From the NCBI GenBank assembly GCA_028284665.1, contig JANQRG010000047.1, forward strand, positions 1-64,000: a stretch of DNA of 64,000 nt, in the 5' to 3' direction. Positions 41,964-61,428 of this stretch are shown here, piece after piece; the first letter of the stretch is position 1, and each line of letters starts with the position of its first letter. Origin of the DNA: Croceivirga sp. GTDB lineage: Bacteria > Bacteroidota > Bacteroidia > Flavobacteriales > Flavobacteriaceae. The notes under the pieces were generated by a model, which saw nothing but the letters and a program-made list of their open reading frames with translations, did no database searches and was not told where the DNA came from. The translations under genes and the position numbers were made by a program.

Positions 41964-42121
41964 TGCTAACGGTCTCGGCTATGATTTTGCTGCGACCATT
42001 TCCCATGGAAATTGTCGGACTGAAATCCAGCCGTTTTATTGGTTATTATGCTTAAATTTAGTGAGAATGTAGCAACCCGCCAGAACGGTGCAGTCGGGCA
42101 GGTTATAGCCCTTGTTGTGTG
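41964..42121 (-). repeat. attC-like recombination site a
   Basis: It begins with GCTAAC (41965-41970) and GGTCTC-GGCTAT, and ends with ATAGCC-CTT-GTTGTGTG (42114-42121). The inner arms GGCTAT and ATAGCC are complementary. The terminal GTTGTGTG pairs with CACACAAC at 42748-42755 on the other side of the PfpI gene. The body closely resembles sites c and l. Confidence 0.8.
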
Positions 42122-42132
42122 TTCGGCTTTTA

Positions 42133-42708
42133 TTAATCCCATATTCCATTTTTGAACATTTGAAACCACTTCTCAATCCCATTATTGTCAAATAAACCAA
42201 TTGTCATGAAAATTTCTCTGGCAAATTCAATAGGGGCAATGCCACTAGCAGTAATTATATTTCCATCCGTAACTGCGAACGATTTTATATAATTCTTTTC
42301 ACCACGATATTCTTGAGCAACTTTTTTTAAATAAATTAAGTCATTGCTAGTATGTTTTAAATCATCTAATAGCCCCTGCTGTCCGAGAAAGTAAGTGGCA
42401 GCACAAATTGCCGCAATTGGTTTGCCTTTTCTAAAAATTTCTTTTGTAAGTTCTATGATTTCTGGATTTCCTCTTTCCTCCCAAGTTGTGCCCCCGGGAA
42501 GGACTAGCATATCCAATTCGTCAATTTTCAGCTCATAAAGTGTCGCATTTGGTTTAATTTCCAATCCTCCCATGGAACTGACTGTATTCTCATCTTTTGA
42601 GAAATAGATCAAATCAAATAATTGGTGCTTATGTATTTCTGGGGTTAGGTATGCTATTTCCCAATCAGAAAATCCGTCAAATAGAAATACAAATATTTTT
42701 TTCTTCAT
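42133..42708 (-). CDS. DJ-1/PfpI family protein (cassette gene)
   Basis: The 191-residue protein is of the DJ-1/PfpI glutamine-amidotransferase-like fold, with the nucleophile elbow Cys in AAICAATYFLG and the acid-box stretch MLVLPGGTTWEE. Members act as glyoxalases, chaperones or peptidases; the activity here is not defined. It is flanked by GTTGTGTG (42114) and CACACAAC (42748), making it a clear single-gene cassette with the start codon close to the boundary. Confidence 0.85.
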   Translation of the reverse strand: MKKKIFVFLFDGFSDWEIAYLTPEIHKHQLFDLIYFSKDENTVSSMGGLEIKPNATLYELKIDELDMLVLPGGTTWEERGNPEIIELTKEIFRKGKPIAAICAATYFLGQQGLLDDLKHTSNDLIYLKKVAQEYRGEKNYIKSFAVTDGNIITASGIAPIEFAREIFMTIGLFDNNGIEKWFQMFKNGIWD

Positions 42709-42745
42709 ATTTAACCCCTTCGAGTTAATGCATGATTTTTAAGCT

Positions 42746-42840
42746 GACACACAACCGAAGAATAAAAACCATAGTCTTTATTCTTTTTATAAGGTGTACT
42801 AAAGATAAGACATCTGTGATCTGCTTAAAAGGGGTTGTAT
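42746..42840 (-). repeat. Leader-like repeat, copy 1 (attI-like candidate)
   Basis: Starting at the cassette core ACACAAC, the ~90-bp sequence includes ATAGTCTTTATTC, a TATA-like run, TACTAAAGATAAGA and CTGCTTAAAAGGGG. It is shared with 44894-44984 and 61334-61428. In the direction of the cassette gene it contains TATCTTTA (42807-42800), one mismatch from the Bacteroidota -7 element TAnnTTTG. Confidence 0.7.
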
Positions 42841-42895
42841 ACCTATACCATAGTATCGACACCGGAGCCTTTTAGAAGCCCGCTAGTAGGTTTTC

Positions 42896-43354
42896 CTAGT
42901 GCATTGTGGTGGTGTCTTCAATGTTTTTTTTAAGATCAATCAATCGTTGTCTGACATTCGATCTCAAATTCCTCTGTATCATTTTTTTGATCATACTGAA
43001 TGGGAAACGGAGGGTAAATGAATACAAAAAGGTCACTTCGGTCAAGTTAATCTGCGTCTCTTTAAAAGTCCAGGAACCCAGGAACGACCTAAACATAAAA
43101 GGGCCTTTGGTCATTTTAATGGCTGTTGCCTTGGGTCTGTTAAACGATACATATTCGGTTTCCATTCCAAGTCCATTTTTTGCAACGCAATATGCTTTAA
43201 CGCCTTTAGCTGCTTTTGTTGCCCCTTCGATCAGATCCGCTTTTTTAAGAAAAGTATCCCAATTTAAGCGCCGGTCGTAATCTTGGGTAAAATCAAATGC
43301 AACTCCTGGAGCACAATTGATTTCAATCTTTTCTGAAAACTTTATACTCTCCAT
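42896..43354 (-). CDS. SRPBCC (START-like) family protein
   Basis: A 152-residue protein with the polyketide-cyclase/SRPBCC pattern: FSEKIEINCAPGVAFDFTQDYDRRLNWDTF at the start, MTKGPFMFRSFLGSWTF in the middle and a long C-terminal helix. The fold binds hydrophobic ligands. It lies between two cassette blocks, and its own boundaries are not clear cassette cores. Confidence 0.8.
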   Translation of the reverse strand: MESIKFSEKIEINCAPGVAFDFTQDYDRRLNWDTFLKKADLIEGATKAAKGVKAYCVAKNGLGMETEYVSFNRPKATAIKMTKGPFMFRSFLGSWTFKETQINLTEVTFLYSFTLRFPFSMIKKMIQRNLRSNVRQRLIDLKKNIEDTTTMH

Positions 43355-43426
43355 TTATTCGCTGTACCTTTTTATATAAGCGCAAGCGCTATTGCTGAAA
43401 AGCTTTCAAAATAGAGCTCATAACCT

Positions 43427-43900
43427 TTAATCATTTAGCCCAATTTCAAAGTATTTCGCCCCTTTGATAGGATTAAATCTGTAGGGCTTTATTTCGTAAA
43501 ACCCCGTTTTCTTATAAAGTTCAATCGCCGAATACATTGTCGACAAGGTATCTAACCTCATTTTTTGATAGCCAAGTTCCTTTCCTATCGCAATCGATTT
43601 TTCCAACATTAGTTTTCCAATACCAAATCCTCGTGCTTCGGTTTTCAGGTACATTCTTTTCAATTCACAAATTAGCCCTTCCAAAGCCCTAATTCCAAAA
43701 CAACCTGATACCGAACTTGTATTGTGACGAACAATAAAAATCGCTCCTTTGGGTCGTGAATATTGATCCTTAAGATTTTCAAGCTCTTTGCTGAAATTCT
43801 GAAACTCCAGATCAATGCCAATTTCGGAAGCATATTCCTTAAATAGCTGAACGGCAATTTGAAAGTCGCTATCGGATTTTGCCTCGGTTAATGTGGTCAT
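43427..43900 (-). CDS. GNAT family N-acetyltransferase
   Basis: A 157-residue GNAT acetyltransferase with the acetyl-CoA-binding motif KTEARGFGIGKLMLEKSI and the C-terminal LYKKTGFYEIKPY pattern. The substrate is unknown. It is bounded on the right by attC-like site c, whose left core is degenerate, and on the left by a short spacer without an obvious core. Confidence 0.87.
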   Translation of the reverse strand: MTTLTEAKSDSDFQIAVQLFKEYASEIGIDLEFQNFSKELENLKDQYSRPKGAIFIVRHNTSSVSGCFGIRALEGLICELKRMYLKTEARGFGIGKLMLEKSIAIGKELGYQKMRLDTLSTMYSAIELYKKTGFYEIKPYRFNPIKGAKYFEIGLND

Positions 43901-43921
43901 ATTATAGAATTTACAGCTTGT

Positions 43922-44059
43922 GCTTTACGGTTCGGCTATGATTTCATTGTGGCCAGAATTTGCTTTAGTCAATTCAGGCTAAGAAATTGAGCCGATTAAT
44001 GGTTAATAGATTTAAAGTTAGTTAGATTCTAGCAATGAAATATAGCCTTTGTTGTGTAC
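43922..44059 (-). repeat. attC-like recombination site c
   Basis: The left core is degenerate (GCTTTAC), then GGTTC-GGCTATG; the right end reads ATAGCC-TTT-GTTGTGTAC (44051-44059). The inner GGCTAT and ATAGCC pair. The terminal GTTGTGTAC is exactly complementary to GTACACAAC at 44894-44902 beyond the TPR gene. Confidence 0.78.
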
Positions 44060-44064
44060 AGTTT

Positions 44065-44862
44065 TTATTCGTTAAATTCTCTGCTTAAATTGTCATTTAT
44101 AAGTGAAAGGTCATTTACTTTTTCTTTGAGCTTTTTCGCTTTTTTGATCATTCTATTGTCATTCCTTTTTTTTCCGATCTTTATGAGACTGTATGAATAA
44201 TAAACTTTGTACATATCATCTTTTATAATATCCCTACTTTTTATTTTATCGAACAAACTTATGCTTTGTTCGAATCTTCCGAGTAGTGTTAGCAAGACCG
44301 CCTTATTACAATAAACTTCATCCCCAATAGTTTTGTTGAGCTTTTCATAAATATGAATTGCATCATTGATATGATTCAAGCCATTTTCATAATCACCTAA
44401 GAAAAGGCTGGAAGCACCAACCCCATAATATCCCTCGGGACTGTATGGGAAATATTCTATCATTTCCTGGTATTTTTTACGCGAAAGATTTGTGTATCCA
44501 ATCCGACCTGCTGTTACTGCTAAGTTCTGTTTGAATTCTATAGATTTATTGTTTGCAAGACTATCCGCGATGTAATACATTTTCACGGCGTCTTCTTCTC
44601 TGTCCAGTAGTCGCAGACTGTAGCCAAGAAAGAAATAAGCGTCGCAAAAGGTACTATCTTTCTTTGCAAGGTCCATAAATATATCAACAGCAGTTCCGCC
44701 ATATCTCTCCCACATCGAGATGCACATTATACCAAGCTCATATTTCTTTTTTGAATCATCATCGATGAACTCGCAATACGTTCTTTTCCCATTAAAATAA
44801 TCGGATTGTGACGTTCCAAATTGAGTAGTAATAATGAATAAAAGGAAGAATAAGACTCTCAT
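44065..44862 (-). CDS. Exported TPR protein (cassette gene)
   Basis: The 265-residue protein has a signal peptide (to about GTSQS) and TPR-like helical pairs (CDAYFFLGYSLRLLDREEDAVKMYY, SPEGYYGVGASSLFLGDYENGLNHIN, VYCNKAVLLTLLGRFEQSISLF). Its function is unknown. It is enclosed by a perfect 9-bp terminal pair (GTTGTGTAC / GTACACAAC), so it is a strong cassette candidate. The second leader-like repeat follows. Confidence 0.8.
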   Translation of the reverse strand: MRVLFFLLFIITTQFGTSQSDYFNGKRTYCEFIDDDSKKKYELGIMCISMWERYGGTAVDIFMDLAKKDSTFCDAYFFLGYSLRLLDREEDAVKMYYIADSLANNKSIEFKQNLAVTAGRIGYTNLSRKKYQEMIEYFPYSPEGYYGVGASSLFLGDYENGLNHINDAIHIYEKLNKTIGDEVYCNKAVLLTLLGRFEQSISLFDKIKSRDIIKDDMYKVYYSYSLIKIGKKRNDNRMIKKAKKLKEKVNDLSLINDNLSREFNE

Positions 44863-44893
44863 CGTTTAGGTTAAGTTTAAGTATACATAAATT

Positions 44894-44984
44894 GTACACA
44901 ACGTAGGAATAAACATTATTGTGTTTATTTGTTTTATATGGCATACTAAAGATAAGATATCTGTTATCTGCTGAAAAGGGGTTT
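44894..44984 (-). repeat. Leader-like repeat, copy 2 (attI-like candidate)
   Basis: It begins at GTACACAAC, the right boundary of the TPR cassette, and shares with the copies at 42746 and 61334 the blocks TAGGAATA, a TATA-like run, ATACTAAAGATAAGA and CTGCTGAAAAGGGG. The possible -7 element TATCTTTA lies at 44954-44947. Confidence 0.7.
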
Positions 44985-45128
44985 TGCGCCATATTTCTGG
45001 ACTCGGAAGCCCATTGGAAGCCTTTTAATAGGGGTAAGCCCATTCCAATAGTATACTACAGTGGAAAAAGATCGTTCGGTACACCGGCCCTGGTAACAAA
45101 GCGCTAATCAGCACTAGTATTGTACCTC

Positions 45129-45515
45129 TTATGTTTTATCCGGTATCCGCCAGGGAGGATGCAACCTGTTCTCCCCTGCATGAAATAAGATCAATTGATT
45201 CCCATCAACATCCTTCAATCGGGCTTCCCGCCATAACCAGGGTTGGTCCGTAGGTTCCAGGTCAAAGGAAATGCCTTTTTCTTTTAACTTTTCGACGTGC
45301 GCATCAAGATGTTCACATTCAAAATACACATATATGCCATCCCCCAAGGGCAACGCATTGGTCTGATGAATGGAAAATGTAGATGCACTATCAGGACATT
45401 CAAATCGGGCATAGTGGGGTAAGGCTTTTACGATCAATTTGAGGCCCAATTTTTCATAAAAAGGAACGGATTTGGTCAAATCCAAGGAGGGGACGGTTAC
45501 CTGGTTTAAATTCAT
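45129..45515 (-). CDS. VOC (glyoxalase/bleomycin-resistance) family protein
   Basis: The start at 45515 (MNLNQVTVPSLDLTKSVPFYEKLGL) matches the family start; an upstream Met at 45557 lies within the HupE gene and was rejected. The 128-residue single-domain protein carries metal-ligand candidates typical of VOC proteins, such as IHQTNALPLGDGIYVYFEC and a closing DVDGNQLILFH. The substrate is unknown. Confidence 0.87.
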   Translation of the reverse strand: MNLNQVTVPSLDLTKSVPFYEKLGLKLIVKALPHYARFECPDSASTFSIHQTNALPLGDGIYVYFECEHLDAHVEKLKEKGISFDLEPTDQPWLWREARLKDVDGNQLILFHAGENRLHPPWRIPDKT

Positions 45516-45519
45516 AGTA

Positions 45520-46197
45520 TCAATGTCCTGTGAAATAGTAGTATAATTGATAGGCAAACAAGCCTATTCCTGCTATTACGAGGTACCAGTTCACAGCTTT
45601 ATAAAATGCCGGAAACTGCTTGTGCTTTCGCGCAAGTGTAATGATAAAAACTATAGGGATCAATGCCAGCACCTGTCCTACTTCTACCCCTAGATTGAAG
45701 CACAGAATTTTGGCTAGCAATTGCTCCGTTCCCATGTCAAAGGATTGTAATCGGGTGGAAAGGCCAAACCCATGGATCAACCCAAAAAGGCCAACCATGA
45801 GCAGTAAATTGGGGGATTTTACTTTCAGTTTTTCGAAACCGGCCAAATTCTCGAACCCCTTGTACAAAACGCTCAAGGCGATAACCGCATCTACTAAGTG
45901 CTCATTGGCAGTAATCCCGGCATAGGTCGCTCCTATCAGGGTAATACAATGTCCTATAGTGAATACGGTGATAAACTTCAAAATGTCCTTAAAGCTGTTC
46001 AGGTAGAAGATGACACCCGCCAGAAAAAGCAAGTGATCGTAACCGGTGAGCATGTGGGTTGCCCCTACCTGTATATAGGCCCATAACCCCCCGTTGCGTA
46101 AGAGCTCCTGATCCGCACTTGAGACATCATGTGCAAATCCAAACAACGGAACGCATAAGAACAACAGCGGAAGGGCGCGCTTCAAATGTATCTGCAT
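45520..46197 (-). CDS. HupE/UreJ-type nickel/cobalt transporter
   Basis: The 225-residue membrane protein has a cleavable signal (to about FGFA), leaving an N-terminal His-Asp as in HupE proteins. The metal motif His48-x5-Asp54-His55 (THMLTGYDHLLFL) is followed by six or so transmembrane segments and LIHGFGLSTRL. The family admits Ni or Co. The DUF4198 His-rich protein gene is two bases upstream, forming a metal-uptake module. It is the second nickel-type transporter in the window. Confidence 0.87.
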   Translation of the reverse strand: MQIHLKRALPLLFLCVPLFGFAHDVSSADQELLRNGGLWAYIQVGATHMLTGYDHLLFLAGVIFYLNSFKDILKFITVFTIGHCITLIGATYAGITANEHLVDAVIALSVLYKGFENLAGFEKLKVKSPNLLLMVGLFGLIHGFGLSTRLQSFDMGTEQLLAKILCFNLGVEVGQVLALIPIVFIITLARKHKQFPAFYKAVNWYLVIAGIGLFAYQLYYYFTGH

Positions 46198-46199
46198 CT

Positions 46200-50825: not shown

Positions 50826-51071
50826 TAATAACGCTTCCCTACTATAAAGACGAAAAAAGGGTGAAAAACGTTGCTTTGGCCTCAAGCCACCTGGCGATTC
50901 ATCACCGACCCCTCCTGATACCTATCGGGATTGGGTTAGAGGAAGACACTTTTTACATTTGGCTACGCCTTTTTGTTAGGTGTGGAATATAATCAAAAAT
51001 GCCATAAAAAGTAGGGGAGTCGAACCTCCTTGAACGATTCAATCGCGTAGCGTATAGCCAATGTTGTAAAA
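50826..51071 (-). repeat. Partly decayed attC-like site e with embedded tRNA-like T-arm
   Basis: The right end GTATAGCC-AAT-GTTGTAAA (core at 51063) is well preserved, but the left core is missing. A stretch at ~50930-50995 is nearly repeated at ~51840-51908. At 51011-51031 the minus strand reads like a tRNA T-arm (GGAGGTTCGACTCC). Confidence 0.5.
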
Positions 51072-51073
51072 CG

Positions 51074-51760: not shown

Positions 51761-51956
51761 GCTTTACTATGGTATTGGACCTGCATGTCGACAGGCAGGT
51801 ATGCTTCCTTCCCCTGACGAACAACCCGAGGTTATAAGCGGATGGTGTTTTTCTATCATTTGGCTGCGCCTTTTTGTTTGGTGTTGAAAATAATCAAAAA
51901 TGCCATGAGAAAGGAGGGAAGTAATGAGTTAAAGCTTCCGTTACTTATAGTCAATG
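51761..51956 (-). repeat. Degenerate attC-like site
   Basis: The left end GCTTTACTATGG and the right end CTTATAGTC-AATGTCAA preserve the general pattern but not the AAC/GTT triplets. A CTGCATGTCGACAGGCAG hairpin lies inside, and the segment 51840-51908 duplicates part of site e. Confidence 0.4.
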
Positions 51957-52632: not shown

Positions 52633-52845
52633 GACTAACTGTTCGGCCCTGCCTGTATACATCGGCAAGAAGGCATGATTTCTGCCCAATAGAGATAAAA
52701 ATCACGCCATTTGTTTTGGTTATTCTAATTTAAGAAACTTGCCCGTACTTGCTGTAAACAAGGTGGGTTTAGAAAAGACCGAAAGGGAGGGATGAACCCG
52801 CCTGAAAGCCGCAGTCGGGTAGGTGATACCCAAGGTCGTGAACAG
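52633..52845 (-). repeat. attC-like site, partly decayed
   Basis: Left core GACTAAC (52633-52639) then TGTTC-GGCCCTG; the right part CAGTCGGGTAGGTGATACCC-AAGGTCGTG resembles the right arm of site k, but the terminal GTT is changed (GTC). The body (TTCTAATTTAAGAAACTTGC) matches site k. Confidence 0.55.
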
Positions 52846-52857: not shown

Positions 52858-53598
52858 TTAGTAGCCCGCTAGTTTTATGATTTCCTCTGGCTTGAGCTTA
52901 CTTAATTCTAAAATGTTTTTACCAGATGTAGTCATGGCTTTTCTAACCAAAAAATTTCCGGTTCGATACCCAATGTAGGTCCTGCCATCGGGATGTTCTC
53001 CCATTACCCAATCCGAGTAGCTTGCATCCAGCGGTAAATCTAGAATTTCTTCTACCCAACGGTCCGCCTCTTCGGGGTAGGCATTTGCTTCAAATACAGT
53101 TTCGGCATAGATCTCTGCAAACACAACAGCCAATCCTTCATTTACCATGGCATTGGGGATTCCCGGGCCAAATGCATTATCCTGAATGGCCCAGCCACGT
53201 GACAAGTGATGCAATTCGTGAAATAGGGTCGCTTTTAAACCAGAATAAATGGAATCAATCACCCCTTCCCGGTACGTATTCGATATTTGGACCATTATAA
53301 GCGGGGGAGTATTTGATTCTGCCCTTCCTGTTACACCACCAACAGCATCCAGATCCCAATCCACATGTTCTACAATCACCGTTATGCTATCCGGTAGTGT
53401 CGGCAATAGTTCCCGAACTTCCTTTTCGGAATTAATTATTACTTCTAGAATAAAATCTTTTTGTGTTTCGGTAAAGTTGAAAGCATCTTCTTGAAAAACA
53501 ATAACTGAATTCGCTAATGAAGATTTCTTCGAATAGGATTCACAGGCGGATAGGCATAGTACGGATAGTAATAAAGTAAGACTTCGTAGTGTATTCAT
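52858..53598 (-). CDS. DUF2268-like putative zinc-dependent protease, lipoprotein
   Basis: A 246-residue lipoprotein (signal LSVLCLSACES, Cys19) with the zinc motif HELHH (LFHELHHLSRGW) and an acidic residue further on in NEGLAVVFAE, as in gluzincin-like DUF2268 proteins. It probably is a membrane-anchored peptidase. It is enclosed by attC-like sites, one of them with degraded cores. Confidence 0.8.
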   Translation of the reverse strand: MNTLRSLTLLLSVLCLSACESYSKKSSLANSVIVFQEDAFNFTETQKDFILEVIINSEKEVRELLPTLPDSITVIVEHVDWDLDAVGGVTGRAESNTPPLIMVQISNTYREGVIDSIYSGLKATLFHELHHLSRGWAIQDNAFGPGIPNAMVNEGLAVVFAEIYAETVFEANAYPEEADRWVEEILDLPLDASYSDWVMGEHPDGRTYIGYRTGNFLVRKAMTTSGKNILELSKLKPEEIIKLAGY

Positions 53599-53665: not shown

Positions 53666-53800
53666 GATACAACAGTCCAGACTCTACCTGTATGCCAAAG
53701 ATATATACACCGGCAGGCAGGTATGATTTCAGCTTGGAATTTACTTGGGTGAATTAAGGTAGAAAAGCGTTGTTTTCTAGCTCAGTTCTTTATTGGCGAC
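53666..53800 (-). repeat. attC-like site, partly decayed
   Basis: It starts with GATACAAC (53666-53673) and ends TTCTTT-ATTGGCGAC (53792-53800). The inner body (TATGATTTCAGCTTGGAATT ... AGAAAAGCGTTGTTTTCTAG) is nearly identical to that of site j, but the right GTT has become ATT. Confidence 0.6.
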
Positions 53801-53804: not shown

Positions 53805-54554
53805 TTAATTCTTTCGCGCTATGTAAAATCCATAGCTGTAATACTCCTTAAACTTCAAATACAAGGCTATTTCAGCTTTATAATCATTAACCACTTTTTG
53901 TGCGAGTTCTGAATTGTCGTGTCGTGTGAGAAAAGCCTCAAATCTATCTTCCATGGGTTTATAATAGCTATTTGTCCAGCTGTCGGTGCTTAAATAAAAA
54001 TAACCAACAAGTGTGTAACCATTACTTTCCAGTTGTTTGATCTTGTTTGAGGCGGTGTCAACATCCGGGGATTCCGTTTTCCAAAAGTCATCCAGTTCCT
54101 TGGGCCGGGATGGAGTAATCCAGGTAAGGTCACTAACGGCCAGGTAGCCACCAACCTTCAAATAGTCCTTCCATTTTTTAAGGCCCGTTTCAAATCCAAT
54201 ACTATAAATGGCGCCTTCTGACCAGATCAGGTCAAATTCGCCCTTTTTAAAAGGCAATTCGTCCATTGACGTTTCAAGCGTCACGATCTTATTCTCCAAT
54301 CCCAATTTTTGAGCCTTTTCATCGAGTTCGGTTAAAAACTCCGGAGCCAGGTCAACCGCTATTATTTTTCCGTTTACGTTTTTGGCAAGTGAAAGGGTCT
54401 GCCCCCCTGAACCACATCCAATGTCAGCTACTTTCAGTTCCTGGTTCGTTGGCATGTTTATAAATTCAAGGGCTTTCAGCGTATCGTTTTCACTTCCTGG
54501 CCCTTGTCTTTCGGAGTTTTTGTGGAAGTTAATTATGAGTTCTAATTCTGTCAC
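53805..54554 (-). CDS. Class I SAM-dependent methyltransferase (cassette-like)
   Basis: A 249-residue methyltransferase with SAM motif I VADIGCGSGGQTLSLA, motif II IAVDLAPEFL, acidic loop LIWSEGAIYSIG and a motif such as LAVSDLTW. The substrate is unknown. It lies between two attC-like sites (53666-53800 and 54576-54618), but its two boundary cores (ATTGGCG / CACCAC) match only in part. Confidence 0.87.
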   Translation of the reverse strand: MTELELIINFHKNSERQGPGSENDTLKALEFINMPTNQELKVADIGCGSGGQTLSLAKNVNGKIIAVDLAPEFLTELDEKAQKLGLENKIVTLETSMDELPFKKGEFDLIWSEGAIYSIGFETGLKKWKDYLKVGGYLAVSDLTWITPSRPKELDDFWKTESPDVDTASNKIKQLESNGYTLVGYFYLSTDSWTNSYYKPMEDRFEAFLTRHDNSELAQKVVNDYKAEIALYLKFKEYYSYGFYIARKN

Positions 54555-54575: not shown

Positions 54576-54618
54576 ACACCACGGTCTCGGACCGACAGGT
54601 TATAGTCTTTGTTGGGTG
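54576..54618 (-). repeat. attC-like site f, very short
   Basis: Only about 43 bp: ACACCAC-GGTCTCGG-ACCGACAGG-TTATAGTC-TTT-GTTGGGTG. The right core GTTGGGTG (54611-54618) pairs with the left core of site g across the next gene. The central part has lost most of the body seen in the longer sites. Confidence 0.6.
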
Positions 54619-54626
54619 CTGTGCAT

Positions 54627-55088
54627 TCATTCTTCCATTGAGTATTCAGCATTTTTAACTTGCTCAGTTATAAAATCAATTTCCTTCCGCACAGATTCAA
54701 TACCAAGGCGATTGGTCAAGACTGTATAAGAGAAGTTGCCTAATCGCAGGCGATTTGGCTGAAGAAATTGAATGAGAGACCAATAATAGATGGTTATTTC
54801 ATGTCCAGAATCAACCGTTTGCTCAAAAAACATTTTGAGGGCATTGTCATTGGGTAATAGTATTGACGCTGATCCTTTTGTAATGATATCGTCCAAAATT
54901 GATGAAGCGTCTTTAAAAAAAGCACCTTTCGGTGTATTTAATGCCATTAATTTCAATCGCAAAGTACCCGAAAGGGGAGAATCCTCATAAAAAGTTCCGC
55001 CATACTCATCATCGTATTCTTCAACCCAATCAGAAGGAATGTGGAATTTTAATATTCCGCGATAATCAATTTCTTTGGTAGTATTCAA
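54627..55088 (-). CDS. Unknown protein (cassette gene, 153 aa)
   Basis: A 153-residue soluble protein with no signal peptide; its pattern (GILKFHIPSDWVEEYDDEYGGTFYE ... TLRLKLMALNTP) suggests a small beta-rich domain. No family is recognised. Its ends carry complementary cores GTTGGGTGC (54611) and GCGCCCAAC (55103), differing by one G-T pairing, which makes it a good cassette candidate. Confidence 0.72.
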   Translation of the reverse strand: MNTTKEIDYRGILKFHIPSDWVEEYDDEYGGTFYEDSPLSGTLRLKLMALNTPKGAFFKDASSILDDIITKGSASILLPNDNALKMFFEQTVDSGHEITIYYWSLIQFLQPNRLRLGNFSYTVLTNRLGIESVRKEIDFITEQVKNAEYSMEE

Positions 55089-55102
55089 TTTGATTCAGCA
55101 TT

Positions 55103-55151
55103 GCGCCCAACCTGTCCGCCTCTGGCGGATTACGTATAGCTAATGTTGTGC
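55103..55151 (-). repeat. attC-like site g, compact
   Basis: A 49-bp site: GCGCCCAAC, then the hairpin TCCGCC-TCT-GGCGGA, then TATAGC-TAAT-GTTGTGC (55145-55151). Both cores are intact and pair with partners across their own genes (54611 and 55939). Confidence 0.78.
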
Positions 55152-55156
55152 TTTTG

Positions 55157-55912
55157 TTATTCTTTTCTTTTGATTTCGTTTTCCAAATCAGCAATCAAAA
55201 TCCGATATTCCGACGCCAAACTCTGGCCTTTTGTTATAACTTCACCCATTTTATTAAGAAGTAAAATATACATATTCTTAAGCTTTTTTGAATTGAAAGT
55301 CTTGATATAAAGCGCTTTATCTTTTTGTTTTTCTTCTTCTGTCCGTGCTCTAAGTTTGGCTAAAACTTTTGGATCAATATTTAGATTATTAATGAAATTT
55401 TCCTCTAAGTGCACTTTAGTGTACTCCGTTATTTCGTCTTCACTTTCCTGGTAATCCGATACGCTATCGTAAAGCTTGGAAATTCTATTCTTTAAAGAAT
55501 CATTTGTAATGATTTCAATTTTACCTGAATGTATTATGGAATTATAAATTCCTGTTGAGGGGTCAAATGTGTAATTTTCAACATTTTCTGTTATCAGTGA
55601 ATCCAGGTGAACAAGCTGTTGGTTAGATAAATCAACAAAAAGAACTTCTTGCGGGCTTCTATTTCTATGGATTTGAGCATTAAGGATCTGGTTTAGCTCG
55701 TTAAGATTAATTTTAATTGCCTCATTTAGACTTTTGAGTGTTTTTAACTCCGTATTTCTCAACTGTTCCCTTTCATTCCAGTTGTTTATCTCAAGAGCGA
55801 TTAAAATTCCAATAACAACAAGAATAATTTCTCCAATAGCATAAACCAAGTACTTTGTAAACTTGTTTTCTGAAAGTAAGTTTTGTCTAATTTTTCTAAA
55901 GAATTTTAACAT
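55157..55912 (-). CDS. DUF6090 family membrane protein (cassette gene)
   Basis: A 251-residue protein with the standard flavobacterial DUF6090 beginning: MLKFFRKIRQNLLSENKFTKYLVYAIGEI, a transmembrane segment ending GILIALEINNWNE, then a long periplasmic helical part. The function is unknown. The cassette boundaries are exact: GTTGTGCTTT (55145-55154) and AAAGCACAAC (55936-55945), ten of ten complementary. Confidence 0.87.
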   Translation of the reverse strand: MLKFFRKIRQNLLSENKFTKYLVYAIGEIILVVIGILIALEINNWNEREQLRNTELKTLKSLNEAIKINLNELNQILNAQIHRNRSPQEVLFVDLSNQQLVHLDSLITENVENYTFDPSTGIYNSIIHSGKIEIITNDSLKNRISKLYDSVSDYQESEDEITEYTKVHLEENFINNLNIDPKVLAKLRARTEEEKQKDKALYIKTFNSKKLKNMYILLLNKMGEVITKGQSLASEYRILIADLENEIKRKE

Positions 55913-55938: not shown

Positions 55939-56027
55939 GCACAACGGTCTCGTGTATGATTCATTGCGGACATTTCCACCCCTATCTGCCGACAGGCAGG
56001 CGTAATTAATGATACACCGTGTTGTAG
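55939..56027 (-). repeat. attC-like recombination site h
   Basis: GCACAAC-GGTCTC-GTGTATGATTCATT at the left, AATGATACAC-CGT-GTTGTAG at the right; the inner arms (GTGTAT/ATACAC, extending to ATGATTCATT/AATGAT) are complementary. A CTGCCGACAGGCAG hairpin lies in the middle. Both cores match partners across their genes. Confidence 0.83.
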
Positions 56028-56035: not shown

Positions 56036-56890
56036 TTATTGAATTGTAAAGGTAAAAGGTACTCTTCCACGTGAAGTTTCATAATTTCCATTTACTTTTT
56101 TCGGTAACCAGGTAGGCCCCGTTTTAACAAGCCGAATAACTTCTTTTCCAATACCATATCCCGGATTCCCTTGGACGAAAAAGTTTTTCATTTCAAAGTT
56201 TTCATCAACATCAAAAAGAACGTAAACACTCGCTGAAATTCCATTCCATTGCGCTTCTTGTGGATATTCCCATTCAAGCTTCAAATGCTCTTTAAGGTTT
56301 TGATTTCCTCCGAGAATCATAGGATTTTGATTGTCAGGGTCACTATCCAGTTCATTTGGTTGTTTGGTTAATGCATCTTCATCGTTGGTATAGTAGATCA
56401 ACTTTTTTGTTGAATGGTCAAATTTGTGAATTAAAACACCGTGCTTATTATAATACTCCCAAACTCCAACTTTATTTCCAATCTCGTAATTTCCGACACT
56501 TCTTTGGTTCTTAGTGTCCGAATAATAGAATTCCCATTTTCCGTTCTTTTTACCGTCCATAAAACCTATTTGTCCAATAGTTTGTCCATCAAAGGCATAT
56601 CTTGTCCAAATACTGTCTTTAACTCCGTTTTTAAATCTACCTGTTTCTGAAAGCTTACCGTTCCCATGATAATATTTCCAAACACCTGTTTTTTCGTCAT
56701 TTTCATATTGTCCGGAGATATGGATTTCATTTCTGAAAAAGTATTTCGTGTAAGGTCCATGCTTAATTTTCTTATTGGATTTTAAAACATGAAATTCCTC
56801 ACTTGTTTTTCTATTTTTCTTTTTAACTGTTTCTTGAGAATAAGAAAAAGATATAAACAAGACGAGAATAATATAATAGGTTTTTTTCAT
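56036..56890 (-). CDS. MORN-variant repeat protein with C-terminal TonB-like domain (cassette gene)
   Basis: The start at 56890 gives a signal peptide (MKKTYYIILVLFISFSYSQ); the upstream Met at 56935 was rejected. About five MORN_2-type repeats follow (GQYENDEKTGVWKYYHGNGKL, GRFKNGVKDSIWTRY, GNYEIGNKVGVWEYY), then a C-terminal TonB-like domain (SASVYVLFDVDENFEMKNF). The function is unknown. It is bounded by GTTGTAGTTT and AAACTACAAC (56021, 56895), a ten-of-ten complementary pair. Confidence 0.82.
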   Translation of the reverse strand: MKKTYYIILVLFISFSYSQETVKKKNRKTSEEFHVLKSNKKIKHGPYTKYFFRNEIHISGQYENDEKTGVWKYYHGNGKLSETGRFKNGVKDSIWTRYAFDGQTIGQIGFMDGKKNGKWEFYYSDTKNQRSVGNYEIGNKVGVWEYYNKHGVLIHKFDHSTKKLIYYTNDEDALTKQPNELDSDPDNQNPMILGGNQNLKEHLKLEWEYPQEAQWNGISASVYVLFDVDENFEMKNFFVQGNPGYGIGKEVIRLVKTGPTWLPKKVNGNYETSRGRVPFTFTIQ

Positions 56891-56897
56891 AAATAAA

Positions 56898-56999
56898 CTA
56901 CAACGCTCTCGGCCCTGCCTGCATGCCAAAGGCATGTAAACCGGAAGGCAGGTATGATTCTGTTCCGAGTTCTTGGGATGAATATAGCCAATGTTGGCA
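56898..56999 (-). repeat. attC-like recombination site i
   Basis: CTACAAC-GCTCTC-GGCCCTGCC at the left; ATAGCC-AAT-GTTGGCA at the right (56993-56999). The middle holds CCTGCC...GGCAGG inverted arms around a GCATGCC/GGCATG hairpin. The left core pairs with 56021-56027, and the right core with 57467-57473. Confidence 0.8.
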
Positions 57000-57009
57000 A
57001 ATGTTTTTA

Positions 57010-57447
57010 TCAGAAATAGTTGAAGAACAGCTCAACAAAAACACCAAGGACAAGACTTAAGATGGCTACCAAACGAGATAAACGTTTTAATTTAAATGGG
57101 TTTGCAAATGCTAGCCAGATACATAACAGCCCACAAATCGATAAAATTATTGTTCCGTATATAGGTACTATGCTGTCGAAAAGACCTAATTGGTCAAAGA
57201 GAGGGTCTAGCAAGGCGGTAAATCCAAAAAGAGCTAAAGCGAAATTCGTTTTTTTATGCCCTATAAAAAAGTAGTAAGCTGCTATTAAAAGTTCAACACT
57301 TATGGCCAAAGGGCCAAATTGGTTGTAGTATTCCCTTTTAAAATAGGCCTCAAATCCTTGAGGAAATTCAATCCTTACTATAAAGGCAACACTTAAAACA
57401 ACGCCAACAAGCAAAAGTAATACTGAAATAATTTTTCTTTTTTTCAT
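57010..57447 (-). CDS. Four-span membrane protein (cassette gene)
   Basis: A 145-residue protein with about four transmembrane helices (~residues 5-25, 45-63, 70-90 and 92-112, with a further hydrophobic end). No family is recognised with confidence. Its ends carry GTTGGCA (56993) and CGCCAAC (57467), complementary with one wobble. Confidence 0.72.
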   Translation of the reverse strand: MKKRKIISVLLLLVGVVLSVAFIVRIEFPQGFEAYFKREYYNQFGPLAISVELLIAAYYFFIGHKKTNFALALFGFTALLDPLFDQLGLFDSIVPIYGTIILSICGLLCIWLAFANPFKLKRLSRLVAILSLVLGVFVELFFNYF

Positions 57448-57466
57448 AATTCATTCCTCTAATGTT

Positions 57467-57579
57467 CGCCAACGGTCTCGGCCCTGCCTGCGGGCAGGCA
57501 GTTATGATTTCAGCTTGGGATTTACTTGAGTAAATTAACGTAGAAAAGCGTTGTTTTTTAGCTCAGTTCTTTGTTGTGT
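57467..57579 (-). repeat. attC-like recombination site j
   Basis: CGCCAAC-GGTCTC-GGCCCTGCC with CTGCCTGCGGGCAGGCAG hairpin at the left; TAGCTCAGTTCTTT-GTTGTGT at the right (57573-57579). The right half is nearly identical to that of the decayed site at 53666. Cores pair across the neighbouring genes. Confidence 0.8.
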
Positions 57580-57583
57580 GCGG

Positions 57584-57961
57584 TTATTCTATTTTAACAA
57601 ATTCCAAAGCTAGTTCTCGAACTTCTTCTAATATTTCCCCCTGAGTTGGATTTGTCGCAATTCTTTTAAACTCCGTCATTAATTTAGGGTCGATTGGTTT
57701 GGTAGCGTTTAATCCGAAAACGGAAACGCACCAATATTTCCATACGTTATCATCTCCTTTCAAAATTTTTATAATATCATCTGTCAAATATTCGGCTATT
57801 GATTCCAAATAATTAGCCACAGGTCCGGCGACAGGCCAGTTCATGTCTTTAATCCAATTTAATAACTCGGGGGCTATATTTTTTACTTCTTCGAACGAAT
57901 AGTTTTTCAAATTTTCCGCTGTTTTTATATCTCCTTTGTCTTTTGGAATTAAGGCTTTCAA
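57584..57961 (-). CDS. DUF5071 protein (cassette gene)
   Basis: A 125-residue protein with the DUF5071 pattern: LIPKDKGDIKTAENLKNYSFEEVK, NWPVAGPVANYL and a HEAT-like WKYWCVSVFGLNA stretch. The family is of unknown function and often occurs with immunity-like proteins. It shares a cassette with the DUF2007 gene four bases upstream; the outer cores are GTTGTGTG (57573) and ACACAAC (58227). Confidence 0.85.
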   Translation of the reverse strand: MKALIPKDKGDIKTAENLKNYSFEEVKNIAPELLNWIKDMNWPVAGPVANYLESIAEYLTDDIIKILKGDDNVWKYWCVSVFGLNATKPIDPKLMTEFKRIATNPTQGEILEEVRELALEFVKIE

Positions 57962-57965
57962 TTTT

Positions 57966-58196
57966 TTATTGTTTAGAATCCATAAAATCCTTTAGTATCT
58001 CATTGGCTTTTTGAATGTCTTCTTCCCTTACTTTTAATCGTACAGTATCCAAAGTTCCGCCAACAAATCCTGCCATATTTCCCGAATTATAATCATTCTG
58101 CACAATTCCATAAATCCCGACCTTTTCGAGCAAACCCTTGATAAGAATTATATCCACTTCAGGTCCTGAGTGAAAGTCTATGAAATTATTCTTCAT
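57966..58196 (-). CDS. DUF2007 putative signal-transducing protein (cassette gene)
   Basis: A 76-residue protein of the DUF2007 type (VDIILIKGLLEKVGIYGIVQNDY ... LRVREEDIQKANEILKDF). The family is a small ferredoxin-like fold of unknown function. It is the first gene in a two-gene cassette with DUF5071, separated by four bases and probably translated together with it. Confidence 0.83.
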   Translation of the reverse strand: MKNNFIDFHSGPEVDIILIKGLLEKVGIYGIVQNDYNSGNMAGFVGGTLDTVRLKVREEDIQKANEILKDFMDSKQ

Positions 58197-58226
58197 CTCA
58201 AATTATTCTATTTTAATTTAAATGAC

Positions 58227-58430
58227 ACACAACGGTTTGGCTATGATTTGCGGCGGGTTGAAATTCGGAGAATTTCGAACCGTAAAATCGAGCCGTTTGT
58301 TTTTTCTTACCCTAATTTAGAAAAACTTGCCCGTATTTGCTGTAAACAATGTGGATTTGGAAAGGGACTTAAGGGCAGGGGTGAACCCGCCTGAGCGACA
58401 CAGTCGGGCAGGTTATAGCCAATGTTGGCA
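58227..58430 (-). repeat. attC-like recombination site k
   Basis: ACACAAC-GGTTT-GGCTATGATTT at the left; GGTTATAGCC-AAT-GTTGGCA at the right (58424-58430). Inner arms GGCTAT/ATAGCC pair. The long body includes GAAATTC...GAATTTC arms and the CTAATTTAGAAAAACTTGCC stretch shared with 48290 and 52730. Confidence 0.82.
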
Positions 58431-58438
58431 ACTACCTT

Positions 58439-59593
58439 TTAGTAATTGCAATGTTTTTCCAACGCTTCTAAAACCATCCAATTATCATCTCCAAGTGAAA
58501 CTGCTTTTTTCAAATCCGAACAGATTTTGGTCAGCTCAGATTCTGGAATCTCAGATTCTTTTGAAGCGATTATTTGAACGTCTTTTGATTTTGATAAAGT
58601 TCTTCCATTTCCCAGTTCATACTTTCTCAAAATTGCAAAAGCTCGATTAGAATAGGCATTAGTAAAGTATGGTTCTATTTCAAGTGTTTTATTAAAATCC
58701 GTAACTGCTTCATCAAATTGGAAATCATTCAATTTCATTGTGGCTCTGGCAAAATAGGCGTCAGCCCAATTTGGTTCTAGTTCCAATGCTTTGTCCAGTT
58801 TCTTTATTGCTCCTTTATAATTTACTTGTTTGTACAAATCTTGGGATTCGTTGTATAATTTGAACAGTTTGTCGTTTATTTTATCCTTTTGGTAAACCCC
58901 ATTTTTGTAGACGTTTTTTCCTTTTACTTCTCCTGTTGAATAGTAGGAAATGGATTCTCCGTCCATTTTTCCGTTTACAAAGTTTGTCCGTTGTTTTAAT
59001 TGTCCGTTTGGATGATACATTTCCCAAATCCCAATTTCTTTGCCGTTTTTGAACTCTCCTTTTTGGATTAAAGTTCCGGCTTTGTTAAATCGTTTTTCAG
59101 TTCCGTTTGAAAGTCCATTGTCGTATTCTATTTCGTCTGATACATTTCCGTTCATATGATACATCAGACGTTTACCTTTTAGTTTTCCGTTGAGTAACGT
59201 TCCTTCTCCTTGTTTTTTTCCAGTGAGGTAATAGTCAATGAATATTCCTGAATATGGTTTTGAACTATTGTTCAAATACCAAGTGCCATTTTTTTTAGTC
59301 ATTAATTTGGTGGTCGGAATCGCTTTTATGCTATCTGGTCTTTTGACATATTCTTTTGTGAAAACATAAATTATTCCGTCCAAGTCTTTGTATCCCGTTT
59401 TTTCAATTGCTTCTCTGTTCTTTAGAACTTCAACTCTGTCAATTTCATTTTCTGTCAGTGTTCCAAATCCTTCTTCTGGTTCTTCAATGATTGGGATTGA
59501 ATCAACGATGTACAGGACATTCTCATTTTGATTCTGACTAAAGCAAATTATAGATGATAAAGTCAGAAGTGTAATCAGTATTTTGTTCTTCAT
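58439..59593 (-). CDS. MORN-variant and TPR repeat protein (cassette gene)
   Basis: A 384-residue exported protein (signal to about CFSQ) with a stretch resembling the start of a TonB-receptor-like domain (TLTENEIDRVEVLKNREAIEKTG), then about six MORN_2 repeats (GEFKNGKEIGIWEMYHPNGQL) and C-terminal TPRs (NWADAYFARATMKLNDFQFDEAV). It is paralogous to the 56036 gene. Boundaries: GTTGGCAAC (58424) and GTTGTCAAC (59610), eight of nine complementary. Confidence 0.82.
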   Translation of the reverse strand: MKNKILITLLTLSSIICFSQNQNENVLYIVDSIPIIEEPEEGFGTLTENEIDRVEVLKNREAIEKTGYKDLDGIIYVFTKEYVKRPDSIKAIPTTKLMTKKNGTWYLNNSSKPYSGIFIDYYLTGKKQGEGTLLNGKLKGKRLMYHMNGNVSDEIEYDNGLSNGTEKRFNKAGTLIQKGEFKNGKEIGIWEMYHPNGQLKQRTNFVNGKMDGESISYYSTGEVKGKNVYKNGVYQKDKINDKLFKLYNESQDLYKQVNYKGAIKKLDKALELEPNWADAYFARATMKLNDFQFDEAVTDFNKTLEIEPYFTNAYSNRAFAILRKYELGNGRTLSKSKDVQIIASKESEIPESELTKICSDLKKAVSLGDDNWMVLEALEKHCNY

Positions 59594-59611
59594 TATTGAT
59601 TTTCAGATTGT

Positions 59612-59766
59612 TGTCAACGGTCTCGGCTATGATTTCGTTACGACGATTTCCTGTTAGCTGAGCTTATCCAAGCAAGGCAATTGTCGGACTGAAATCCAGC
59701 CGTGTTAATGGTTAATAAGATCAAAGTTAGCAAGAACGCAGCAATGAATTATTGCCATTGTTGTGC
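59612..59766 (-). repeat. attC-like recombination site l
   Basis: TGTCAAC-GGTCTC-GGCTATGATTTCG at the left; TTATTGCC-ATT-GTTGTGC at the right (59760-59766). The body (AATTGTCGGACTGAAATCC, TTAATGGTTAATA) is close to sites a and c. The right core pairs with 60289-60295. Confidence 0.8.
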
Positions 59767-59774
59767 GCTCGTTT

Positions 59775-60266
59775 TTATTTCACTTTCATTATATAAACTC
59801 CATTAATCCTTTCACTTGTCAATTCGATATGTTTATTAAATGTCGGTTTAACAATTTTGAAGTAAGAGTCAGAATCAATGGTCCCACGTTTAATATGTAA
59901 GTGGTCAGCTTTCCAATGTTTTCCATCAATATCTGGTTGTCTGACCTCAATTATTGTCCTTTCCTTATTCCATTTGTCGAAGATATACTCCCCTGAATAA
60001 TGATCTGGATGTTCAACTTTTGAATACATCGCAGATTCGATTTCTGTGTTTGTCCACCAAAACTGCTCCAAGGTGCACAGGTCAAGTAGGTCAACTTTTT
60101 TTGCGTCATTGGAAAAGAACAAACCGACTATTTCTAAAATATTTTTTCCTTTTAGATGGTTGAACATAATGTTGTAAGGAAAAGCAGTCACAACTCCCAG
60201 ATTATCGATTATTCCTTTTTCCCATTTTAGAATTTCCCTTTGTCTAGGGTTCTTTTTCCTACTCAC
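59775..60266 (-). CDS. Unknown protein (cassette gene, 163 aa)
   Basis: A 163-residue soluble protein without signal peptide or recognised domain. It begins with a basic stretch (MSRKKNPRQREILKWEKG) and has a possibly DUF4279-like beta-rich end. It is bounded by GTTGTGC (59760) and GCACAAC (60289), seven of seven complementary. An orphan cassette gene. Confidence 0.7.
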   Translation of the reverse strand: MSRKKNPRQREILKWEKGIIDNLGVVTAFPYNIMFNHLKGKNILEIVGLFFSNDAKKVDLLDLCTLEQFWWTNTEIESAMYSKVEHPDHYSGEYIFDKWNKERTIIEVRQPDIDGKHWKADHLHIKRGTIDSDSYFKIVKPTFNKHIELTSERINGVYIMKVK

Positions 60267-60288
60267 TAAATGTTATTTGTTAAATGAA

Positions 60289-60521
60289 GCACAACGGTCA
60301 CGTATAACCGTCAGTTATGGGTTTTAAGTTGGTGTTTTTCGGTTAAGCACTGCCTTTAGCAATTCCGACCAGCCCAACTACGTCGTTCTGACGGGTGGTT
60401 TCTAACCTGTGCTGAGTTTGTCGAAGCATAGTCGAATTCGCCGACCAGAGCGCAGCTACCGATGAACACCATAAACCAACTACTATGCGTGAATAAATTG
60501 CGGTTATACATTGTTGTACGC
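60289..60521 (-). repeat. attC-like recombination site m
   Basis: GCACAAC-GGTCAC-GTATAACCG at the left; CGGTTATAC-ATT-GTTGTACGC at the right (60513-60521). The inner arms GTATAACCG/CGGTTATAC are perfectly complementary. A CTGAGTTTGTCGAAGCATAG-type segment resembling a Bacteroidota REP sequence lies inside. Confidence 0.83.
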
Positions 60522-60527
60522 AGTATT

Positions 60528-61316
60528 TTATTCAACGAATTTTGGTCTTATTAGATTCATATAGTCAATTGTCGATTCAATTACTTTTTCAAGTTCGATG
60601 TCTAATAATTTTCCAATGCTCTTAAAGTACATTCCCATTTCGTTTTCAGAATTTGTCTTCAAGTGAATTACTTCTCTTCTTAAATCGTAAAGCTCGATAA
60701 TTAGTCCGATTATTTTTGGGTTGCTTTCTGAAAAATTTGGCTGATCTAAAAGCTGACTAATTAAATCGGTCAATTTTTCTTTAAAAGTAACTTGGGGACT
60801 CTCAATTTTTTTCTTGTTCAGCTTTTTTGTCTTTCCATATTTGGTCTGCTCATAAATAAAATTGTTCGGAATAACTTGATTCAAAAAGGCTTCTAATGAA
60901 GTAACTAATGATATAACAGACACCATTTTAAACTTAATCAAGTCGTTAAAATTCTTGTTAGTATTATCATTTCCGATGTTCAATATGTGAATTCCATTAT
61001 CCTCATTATCTAACTGACAATCATGTTTTAGTAATTCCAAAGTTTTAATCGAATAGTTGTAATTTTCAATTCCGCTATTTAACAGTATATGTACTGGATT
61101 TGGAAGAGGTGCAATAAATATTTTGTCTAAATACTTTACAGTTCTGCTCGTGAAAGTTATTTTTTCGCCATCGTCTTTTTGTACAATAACAACTAGTTCG
61201 TCCTTTAAAACTGACCTGTTTTCCAAATTTTTGTGTTCAACGGGTTTTCCATCCGAGTAAGCTACATTCGGTGCATATTCTAAAAAATAAAGTGGACTGT
61301 TTTTAATTTTATTCAC
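60528..61316 (-). CDS. HEPN-like unknown protein (cassette gene)
   Basis: A 262-residue soluble protein. The C-terminal half is helical with LRREVIHLKT, an Rx4H motif of the kind that is catalytic in HEPN RNases, and it resembles RiboL-PSP-HEPN or MAE_28990-type proteins. The N-terminal part is mixed alpha/beta. A role in RNA cleavage or defence is possible, but the motif is short. The boundaries GTTGTACGCA (60513) and TGCGTACAAC (61333) are complementary over ten bases and, past one mismatch, four more. Confidence 0.72.
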   Translation of the reverse strand: MNKIKNSPLYFLEYAPNVAYSDGKPVEHKNLENRSVLKDELVVIVQKDDGEKITFTSRTVKYLDKIFIAPLPNPVHILLNSGIENYNYSIKTLELLKHDCQLDNEDNGIHILNIGNDNTNKNFNDLIKFKMVSVISLVTSLEAFLNQVIPNNFIYEQTKYGKTKKLNKKKIESPQVTFKEKLTDLISQLLDQPNFSESNPKIIGLIIELYDLRREVIHLKTNSENEMGMYFKSIGKLLDIELEKVIESTIDYMNLIRPKFVE

Positions 61317-61333
61317 AGCTTTTGGTCAATATT

Positions 61334-61428
61334 GCGTACAACATAGGAATATAAACAATAGTCTTTATTCCCTTTATACGGAATATTAAAGATAAGACTT
61401 CTGAGGAGCGTTTAAAAGCGGCTTTCCG
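61334..61428 (-). repeat. Leader-like repeat, copy 3 (attI-like candidate)
   Basis: It begins at GCGTACAAC, the right boundary of the last cassette, and shares with 42746-42840 and 44894-44984 the blocks TAGGAATA, ATAGTCTTTATTC, a TATA-like run and AATATTAAAGATAAGA. The possible -7 element TATCTTTA lies at 61394-61387. It is at the 5' end of the whole array. Confidence 0.7.

Follow-up and report, generated by a model that had tools for sequence, protein, structure and literature searches.

Integron-like gene cassettes of Bacteroidota and a tyrosine recombinase without the IntI additional domain

Integrons and related systems

In chromosomal integrons and superintegrons, small genes, each with an attC site in the form of an imperfect inverted repeat, stand in long one-way arrays beside an attI site that adjoins the gene of the recombinase IntI. 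Crossover takes place in GTT/AAC, folding favours the bottom strand of attC, and in each site the R'' box is complementary to the beginning of the cassette that carries it. Inverted integrons, of which Treponema is an example, carry an IntI with the additional domain, and XerA, XerC/D and XerH act on dif-type sites. According to the cited passages, the additional domain is called defining and necessary for integron integrases (PMC9668308), canonical attC has an unpaired extra base in L'' (PMC2727003), and inverted IntIs are on record (PMC8352920), in which, as in most loci described below, the recombinase gene is codirectional with the array. In an integron-like subgroup of tyrosine recombinases the insertion is called essential for integron function, and the passages cited here do not link its domain-less members to cassette arrays (PMC8138268); this comparison is by description only. 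Salinibacter ruber M1, of the same phylum as our genome, has a complete integron according to IntegronFinder 2.0 (part of PMC9024848), presumably with the IntI domain, and is set apart by description only. Moreover, Delta-attI-type cassettes of mobile integrons also have an attI-like sequence apart from the recombinase, but they come from resistance integrons (as described in part of PMC12901181), whereas the leaders reported here are three array starts. Among the matches listed in a search of open PMC papers, none described such arrays or the movement of cassettes by a domain-less recombinase. The system described here works like an integron, yet by the usual definition it is not an integron.

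Cassette arrays and their boundaries

The sequence-only reading of the window (the whole 64-kb stretch analysed) had claimed at least ten small minus-strand genes split by AAC...GTT sites with inner complementary arms, which is borne out. It had described one long array, but the arrangement is discontinuous: covariance model R1 recognises no site from 44.06 to 55.94 kb, and the stretch at 45.1-52.6 kb looks ordinary or worn. Three attI-like leaders, absent from that reading, each lie immediately 5' of a first cassette; they are an 88-bp repeat (D1) ending in GTT and mark three separate array starts. The features are listed below, with AAC/GTT core coordinates fixed by the end-matching test and by reading of the sequence.

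61336..61423, minus: attI-like leader A, D1 repeat; GTT core 61342-61340; starts array A
60528..61316, minus: cassette 1 gene, 262 aa, no Pfam match
60289..60519, minus: attC-like site 1, long form, GTATAACC/GGTTATAC arms; cores 60515/60295; from the looser scan
59775..60266, minus: cassette 2 gene, 163 aa, no Pfam match
59612..59766, minus: attC-like site 2, R1 2e-16 (training member); cores 59762/59618; ends 4/7
58439..59593, minus: cassette 3 gene, MORN_2 and TPR repeats (Pfam)
58227..58430, minus: attC-like site 3, R1 E 0.001 (independent); cores 58426/58233; ends 5/7
57584..58196, minus: cassette 4, two genes, DUF2007 and DUF5071 (Pfam)
57464..57582, minus: attC-like site 4, CCTGCC palindrome interrupts L' arm; cores 57575/57473; ends 5/7
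57010..57447, minus: cassette 5 gene, 145 aa, no Pfam match
56898..57002, minus: attC-like site 5, CCTGCC palindrome interrupts L' arm; cores 56995/56904; ends 5/7
56036..56890, minus: cassette 6 gene, TonB_C, MORN_2 (Pfam)
55939..56027, minus: attC-like site 6, GTGTAT/ATACAC arms; R1 2.2e-9 (training member); cores 56023/55945; ends 7/7
55157..55912, minus: cassette 7 gene, DUF6090 (Pfam)
55089..55154, minus: attC-like site 7, 3' part missing; core 55147; R'' against own cassette start 7/7
54627..55088, minus: gene 8, 153 aa; at about 54576-54620 a short, deleted attC-like site, cores 54613/54582 (GTG for GTT)
53805..54554, minus: gene 9, methyltransferase (Pfam); worn site, approximately 53667-53800, cores about 53794 (AAT)/53673
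52858..53598, minus: gene 10, DUF2268 (Pfam); worn site, approximately 52633-52845, cores about 52837/52639
44896..44983, minus: attI-like leader B, D1 repeat and inverted-repeat counter; GTT core at 44902
44065..44862, minus: cassette 11 gene, TPR (Pfam)
43927..44057, minus: attC-like site 11, R1 2.2e-7 (independent); cores 44053/43928 (GTA)
42749..42836, minus: attI-like leader C, D1 repeat and inverted-repeat counter; GTT core at 42755
42133..42708, minus: cassette 12 gene, DJ-1/PfpI (Pfam)
41964..42120, minus: attC-like site 12, R1 3.8e-14 (training member); cores 42116/41970; ends 6/7

R1 gave five matches in the 64-kb window at E<=0.1, all on the minus strand. Three of them (sites 2, 6 and 12) had been in its training set, leaving only sites 11 and 3 as independent matches; the remaining sites lie outside the R1 matches at this threshold, and an Rfam search of the window returned nothing at gathering score. 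The ATG of cassette 6 at 56890 lies after site 5, into which a longer ORF would extend. With regard to the cargo, Pfam (E<=0.01) recovered PfpI, TPR, MORN, DUF6090 and DUF5071 as claimed earlier, together with DUF2007, TonB_C, methyltransferase and DUF2268; the HEPN-like label was left unconfirmed, and four of the ten proteins in one searched cargo set had no match at that threshold.

The last bases of a cassette (R'') are complementary to the first bases of the same cassette and not to the sequence 3' of the site. In the window 53 of 63 positions match, while 20000 permutations gave a mean of 29 and a maximum of 49; because this test draws on bases unused by the site search, the window sites are beyond chance. 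The R'' boxes of sites 1 and 11 match the starts after leaders A and B, respectively, at 7/7. In four of the nine window cassettes the ends agree at no more than 4-5 of 7 positions, and the window arrays may therefore be old. Over 390 neighbouring pairs the ends match at 6.28 of 7 positions, against 2.68 within sites and 2.54 at random; this count supersedes a first one on an incomplete site list, in which 112/190 pairs agreed at six or seven of the 7 positions. Sites lacking an AAC/GTT core were dropped (10/110 in one set, 31/485 in a fuller one).

Where homologous cassettes stand beside different neighbours, their sequences agree as far as G|TT and only at chance level past it; this is the boundary found in integrons of the IntI type. 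The 430 homologous pairs are mostly copies within a single genome, and a one-per-family count was therefore added. Unit boundaries and matching ends are thus read directly from the sequence, and together with the sharp G|TT edges they indicate cassette recombination at one fixed point, the exchange itself being read from homologous cassettes that stand in different places.

The sites have the R''-L''-L'-R' layout of attC, an imperfect inverted repeat with AAC/GTT, with pairs counted on a structure-fitted alignment, and their bottom strand folds better than the top strand by folding energy. A perfect 6-nt stem is present in 375/454 sites, compared with 156/454 when arms are swapped between sites. 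Unlike canonical attC, the L box is paired throughout its columns with no bulge (99.2% of cells; the alignment leans to the model), no unpaired extra base occurs in L'', and the spacers are uneven, 3 and 6 nt in 292/375 sites. A strict first scanner missed most sites because it demanded R''/R' pairing inside one site, unlike cassette arrays. A looser scan gave 20 matches against 16 in the reversed sequence, which proves nothing alone, and true sites were chosen by eye from the scan results on account of arms of the GGCTAT/GTATAA kind; the A2 covariation is therefore partly due to selection.

The recombinase and its attI-like sites

None of the genome's listed recombinase genes lies on contig C51, that of the window, which bears out the earlier statement that the window has no tyrosine recombinase. 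The genome does encode an intact 272-aa tyrosine recombinase on contig C11 (2096-2914), which adjoins an attI-like site and one cassette. This supports the earlier suggestion of integron-like arrays in Bacteroidota with the recombinase elsewhere, the phylum being judged from R1 matches among named loci, all of which have Bacteroidota titles. The C11 enzyme is likely the driver of the window's cassettes. It contains a Phage_integrase domain, and the residues that we take to be catalytic are invariant in 21 proteins, as in tyrosine recombinases. The sequence-only reading had proposed a search for an IntI with the family-specific extra domain, but what we found was an array-linked recombinase without it: the corresponding position holds 22 residues, compared with 65 in IntI4 (2a3v), no long insertion is seen there in any of 21 aligned proteins, and the structure model has no helix between residues 180 and 197. 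The protein scores 207.7 bits against the integron-integrase model TIGR02249 (cut-off 265) and falls outside the IntI clade in a quick tree. XerA, XerC/D and XerH, which are among the closest solved structures listed, likewise have a two-domain fold without the IntI insertion, but the recombinases here go together with cassette arrays and with an attI-like site.

The position of the attI-like sites and of arrays next to such genes, like the missing domain, is read directly from the sequence. Among 21 recombinase loci examined, 16 have attC-like sites (including L073, whose first site is weak, E 0.013, at a contig end), and in 15 of these 16 a putative attI, defined by position and core, lies within 150 bp of the recombinase gene, as attI does in IntI integrons. 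It differs from the attI of those integrons in that it is usually an inverted repeat followed by GTT, and the recombinase is oriented with the array in 12/16 loci. A counter for inverted repeats before GTT was unspecific (60 matches in the window versus 88 in the reversed sequence, of 977 GTT); the inverted repeat of leader A is visible by reading only and was missed by it. The window leaders resemble the attI of a long recombinase class, which was not found in the window's genome (one match at E<=1e-45, equal to the short gene). Members of the long class, with relatives in Winogradskyella and Algibacter for example, have an N-terminal extension of roughly 105 aa.

Proposed explanation and its rivals

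We consider it very probable that the window contains gene cassettes of a Bacteroidota integron-type system run by a domain-less recombinase. A tyrosine recombinase of the 'simple' kind, lacking the IntI additional domain, would join circular cassettes, via the attC-like hairpin, to an attI-like site adjoining its own gene, with crossover between G and TT. Repeated insertion would give arrays read in one direction, and attC x attC recombination would remove or move cassettes. The folded attC bottom strand is the probable substrate, as in integrons. The three window arrays, with no recombinase adjoining, would be served in trans if still active, and part of array A is worn. We infer that this recombinase performs the chemistry, that its substrate is single-stranded and that it may be active at present. 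Several observations count against this explanation: the single cassette beside the recombinase of the window's genome, the resemblance of the window leaders to the attI of a recombinase class not found in that genome, the low end matching of four window cassettes, and the zero R1 sites at the G419 and G079 loci described below.

The overall layout, with AAC...GTT, stem arms and one-way small genes, would also suit a CALIN, or a far-off portion of an ordinary chromosomal integron, with a canonical, domain-bearing IntI as its driver. We regard this as highly unlikely, since domain-less recombinases occupy the array heads and TIGR02249 exceeded its cut-off in 0/120 genomes of the window's family, a run in which the control genomes were also silent; in a positive control it did so in 6/18 named genomes (6/11 non-Bacteroidota, 0/7 Bacteroidota). 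R1, moreover, gave no match next to any of six canonical IntI genes and none in 24 genomes from outside the Bacteroidota; its matches in genomes of the window's family and in congener G419 show that it can detect sites. The earlier suggestion of a CALIN or distant chromosomal integron thus holds as to a recombinase off the window, but the arrays are not simply a CALIN of a known integron: the sites constitute a family apart, and the window's arrays begin at three attI-like leaders.

The housekeeping XerC/XerD could instead move the cassettes like dif modules, with the array-linked recombinase as a bystander; in favour of this, the recombinase gives good scores with Xer models, and further Xer-like genes are present in the genome. 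The closeness of attI-like sites to the array-linked genes and the long attC-like hairpins make this very unlikely. An origin of the sites as mobile hairpins, REP-like repeats or terminators, spread by copying without cassette recombination, is extremely unlikely, although similar hairpins are abundant 3' of stop codons and some contain a nested palindrome: site ends match the far end of the gene unit to which they belong and vary between units, sites travel with one gene up to sharp G|TT edges, and arrays begin at a fixed site adjoining the recombinase. This weighing presumes no bias common to the end-matching, boundary and attI counts.

Under the cassette explanation, Bacteroidota appear to collect and shuffle small genes by an integron-like system without the IntI extra domain. 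AttC-like sites were present in 106/120 genomes of the family, and per-genome counts from the whole-genome searches (over 40 genomes) are lower bounds, as filters were stricter and few candidates (28 or 11) were scored per genome. More tentatively, these arrays may represent a second origin of folded-attC cassette capture, in Bacteroidota, from an XerA-like recombinase that never had the IntI domain; this would be the main integron system of the phylum, present in the majority of genera in the window's family; its cassettes, so far unseen, would number in the thousands, and its attC and attI rules would be unlike those of IntI integrons. As the IntI-specific domain is the basis of an integron finder or profile (cited passages of PMC9668308, PMC8352920), standard searches may overlook the system. 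If capture works without the additional domain, surveys may miss an integron type common to most sampled genera of a large family; the purpose of the domain and the choice of attC strand without the unpaired L'' base would become directly testable, and a large pool of mobile small genes would be opened.

Congener G419 keeps leader A in place, with GAT instead of GTT, at a 13.4-kb locus (L214) with zero R1 sites, and has 16 R1 matches elsewhere in its genome. Genome G079 has the recombinase, with zero R1 sites in the 15.9-kb locus L074. Further, weaker recombinase matches are also present in congeners.

Three array starts in the window

The sequence-only reading had described one long cassette array at 41964..61428. 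On the minus strand, from 61.4 down to 41.9 kb, reading of the sequence indeed finds small genes and, behind every one of them, a site N7-AAC...GTT-N7 with inner complementary arms (e.g. GGCTATAA/TCATAGCC, GTATAACC/GGTTATAC and GTGTAT/ATACAC); eight sites are clear and four are worn or cut. The single array has to be given up, because three leaders, each placed before a first cassette, mark three starts.

Leaders in the window (D1 repeats, 88 bp), unseen in the sequence-only reading
61336-61423, minus strand: leader A, ends GTT, directly 5' of first cassette 1
44896-44983, minus strand: leader B, ends GTT, directly 5' of first cassette 11
42749-42836, minus strand: leader C, ends GTT, directly 5' of first cassette 12

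Searching the window with R1, a covariance model of the attC-like sites, gave no site between arrays in ~7.5 kb (45.1-52.6 kb). Several attC-like sites carry a CCTGCC...GGCAGG palindrome nested in the L' arm, between CATA and GCC (window ~57500, ~56940, ~53720, ~52650 and ~51780), which resembles a small REP element preferring such sites. A second hairpin-like repeat, AAAAAGGCGYAGCCAAATG, occurs at 50956-51010 and 51857-51911 in copies 89% alike and does not follow the GTT rule.

Cassette ends and site structure

In integrons, the TT of the core and the bases beyond it are part of the next cassette. R'' is therefore expected to match the first bases of its own cassette rather than the R' now found behind it, and this matching is the deciding test for cassette organization. 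In nine window cassettes, 53 of 63 positions were paired, while 20000 permutations gave a mean of 29 and a maximum of 49, none reaching 53. Within one site, R'' and R' matched at only 3, 2, 1, 1, 2, 5 and 0 of 7 positions in the seven window sites with both ends. Similarly, 31 loci from the window's own and related genomes gave 5.70/6 over 69 neighbouring pairs (2.16 within sites, 2.21 at random), and a larger set of 390 neighbouring pairs gave 6.28/7 (2.68 and 2.54, respectively). The matching does not reflect a shared consensus, since the R'' bases vary widely (111 distinct 7-mers among 228 sites); of these seven bases, R1 covers just the four adjoining the core.

Among 391 cassettes, 25 families of homologues were identified, and comparison within them indicates that cassettes move as whole units. 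Non-homologous next cassettes allowed a test of the 3' end in 18 families; for the 5' end the number was also 18. Taking one pair per family, identity was 0.93 over the last 40 bases to the G and 0.42 past TT, and 0.53 before the cassette start and 0.91 after it. Some gene bodies are 100% identical within one genome despite different neighbours, and three between-genome cases show 93.4%, 92.9% and 88.4% identity, the last sharing the gene but differing in site type and ends. In the 3'-end profile of all pairs, positions 3, 4 and 7 before G|TT diverged in otherwise like copies (identity 0.67, 0.47 and 0.66), as if the spacer adjoining the core mutates or is swapped. The dip was weaker with one pair per family (0.89, 0.83 and 0.83), and thus one family drives it.

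Of the 375 sites with a perfect 6-nt stem (454 sites in all), 292 have 3 nt between AAC and L'' and 6 nt between L' and GTT. In 265 sites the top strand carries A/C as its seventh L base, giving a T/G wobble on the bottom strand, and the bottom-strand hairpin is the stabler in 187 of 200 sampled sites. Extra bases of the R''-L'' arm steer strand choice in IntI integrons (PMC2727003), whereas no unpaired extra base was seen in the L box here. Strand choice in the present sites, if any, would have to rest on something else, perhaps on the wobbles and the uneven spacer.

A candidate simple tyrosine recombinase and its attI-like sites

The window's genome has one close candidate recombinase (contig C11:2096-2914, 272 aa), the top match of the integron-integrase model in that genome, yet under its cut-off. 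Beside it, divergent from the gene, lie an attI-like site (...ATATCCAGTA directly followed by GTTGTGCTC), a single cassette and a single attC-like site. In the window's family, 83/120 genomes have relatives (E<=1e-45); this family is taken to be Flavobacteriaceae, because the tree places named Flavobacteriaceae members among these proteins.

The 21 recombinase loci that we examined were not sampled at random but chosen for belonging to the short class or for scoring highest. R1 sites were present in the examined flank of 16/21, up to 13 per 10 kb; five of these 16 had supplied training sites, which leaves 11/16 as the independent count. Of the five loci lacking sites, four have a contig end less than 700 bp away, on the side that bears the array in their tree neighbours; the fifth, in genome G079, has no R1 site in 15.9 kb. 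The gene points along the array at 12 of 16 loci and away from it at 4. Draft contigs of L067, L070, L071, L073 and L075 end ~900 bp or less from the recombinase, which would fit assembly being halted by repeated attC sites. A long class (L077-L084) carries an N-terminal extension of ~105 aa, in which four scanned proteins (L078, L080, L082 and L083) gave no Pfam match above cut-off. This class is present at full length in three congeners and was not found in the window's own genome.

The first cassette's R'' predicts which bases should come after the attI GTT. A GTT followed by them lies <=150 bp from the recombinase gene with 6/6 bases at 13/16 loci and with >=5/6 at 15/16; shuffling R'' between loci gave means of 1.0 and 1.9 and maxima of 5 and 8, respectively. 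By eye, ~11/15 of these attI-like sites have an inverted repeat a few bases 5' of GTT (e.g. aaataaacgcaccggtgcgtttatccatat before GTT), and this arrangement recurs at sites next to the recombinase gene in certain congeners (e.g. L294, L295 and L296). Leaders B and C share this layout, and in leader A the repeat was seen on reading only (gaataaagactattgtttatattcctat before GTT). The window leaders look like the attI-like sites of the long class. Leader A is kept at the equivalent place in the congener G419, with GAT replacing GTT. In the same congener, two leader copies (L214:1645-1741 and ~2590-2700) flank a gene labelled by eye as DUF6090-like; leaders may thus be carried along, or copied, together with cassettes.

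Classification and distribution

On every point tested by sequence the system behaves like an integron, with two exceptions: the recombinase lacks the IntI domain, and L'' has no unpaired base. An IntI with the family-specific extra domain had been proposed as the driver; that domain was tested for and is absent, and the C11 recombinase scores below the integron-integrase cut-off. Because of that missing domain, the system is not filed as an IntI integron. A C11-type recombinase is the likely cutting enzyme, the bottom strand its probable substrate, and the window arrays may still be active.

In the window's family, sampled with one genome per genus, R1 matched 106 of 120 (E<=0.01; five had supplied training sites). 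It also matched all 11 genomes of the genus and, at E<=0.001, 66/296 of the phylum, but none of 24 genomes outside Bacteroidota. Among the 80 named recombinase loci listed, 11 had R1 matches, all titled Bacteroidota (Flavobacterium, Winogradskyella, Rufibacter, Seonamhaeicola, Algibacter, Algoriphagus, unnamed Flavobacteriaceae and MAGs). By nhmmer matches, arrays attain the size of integron islands in G113 (74 sites in 60 kb) and G068 (86 in 79 kb). The attC 3' motif CATAGCCGAGACCGTTGT also occurs exactly in five viral contigs of IMG/VR (L307-L311), and therefore phages may carry such cassettes.
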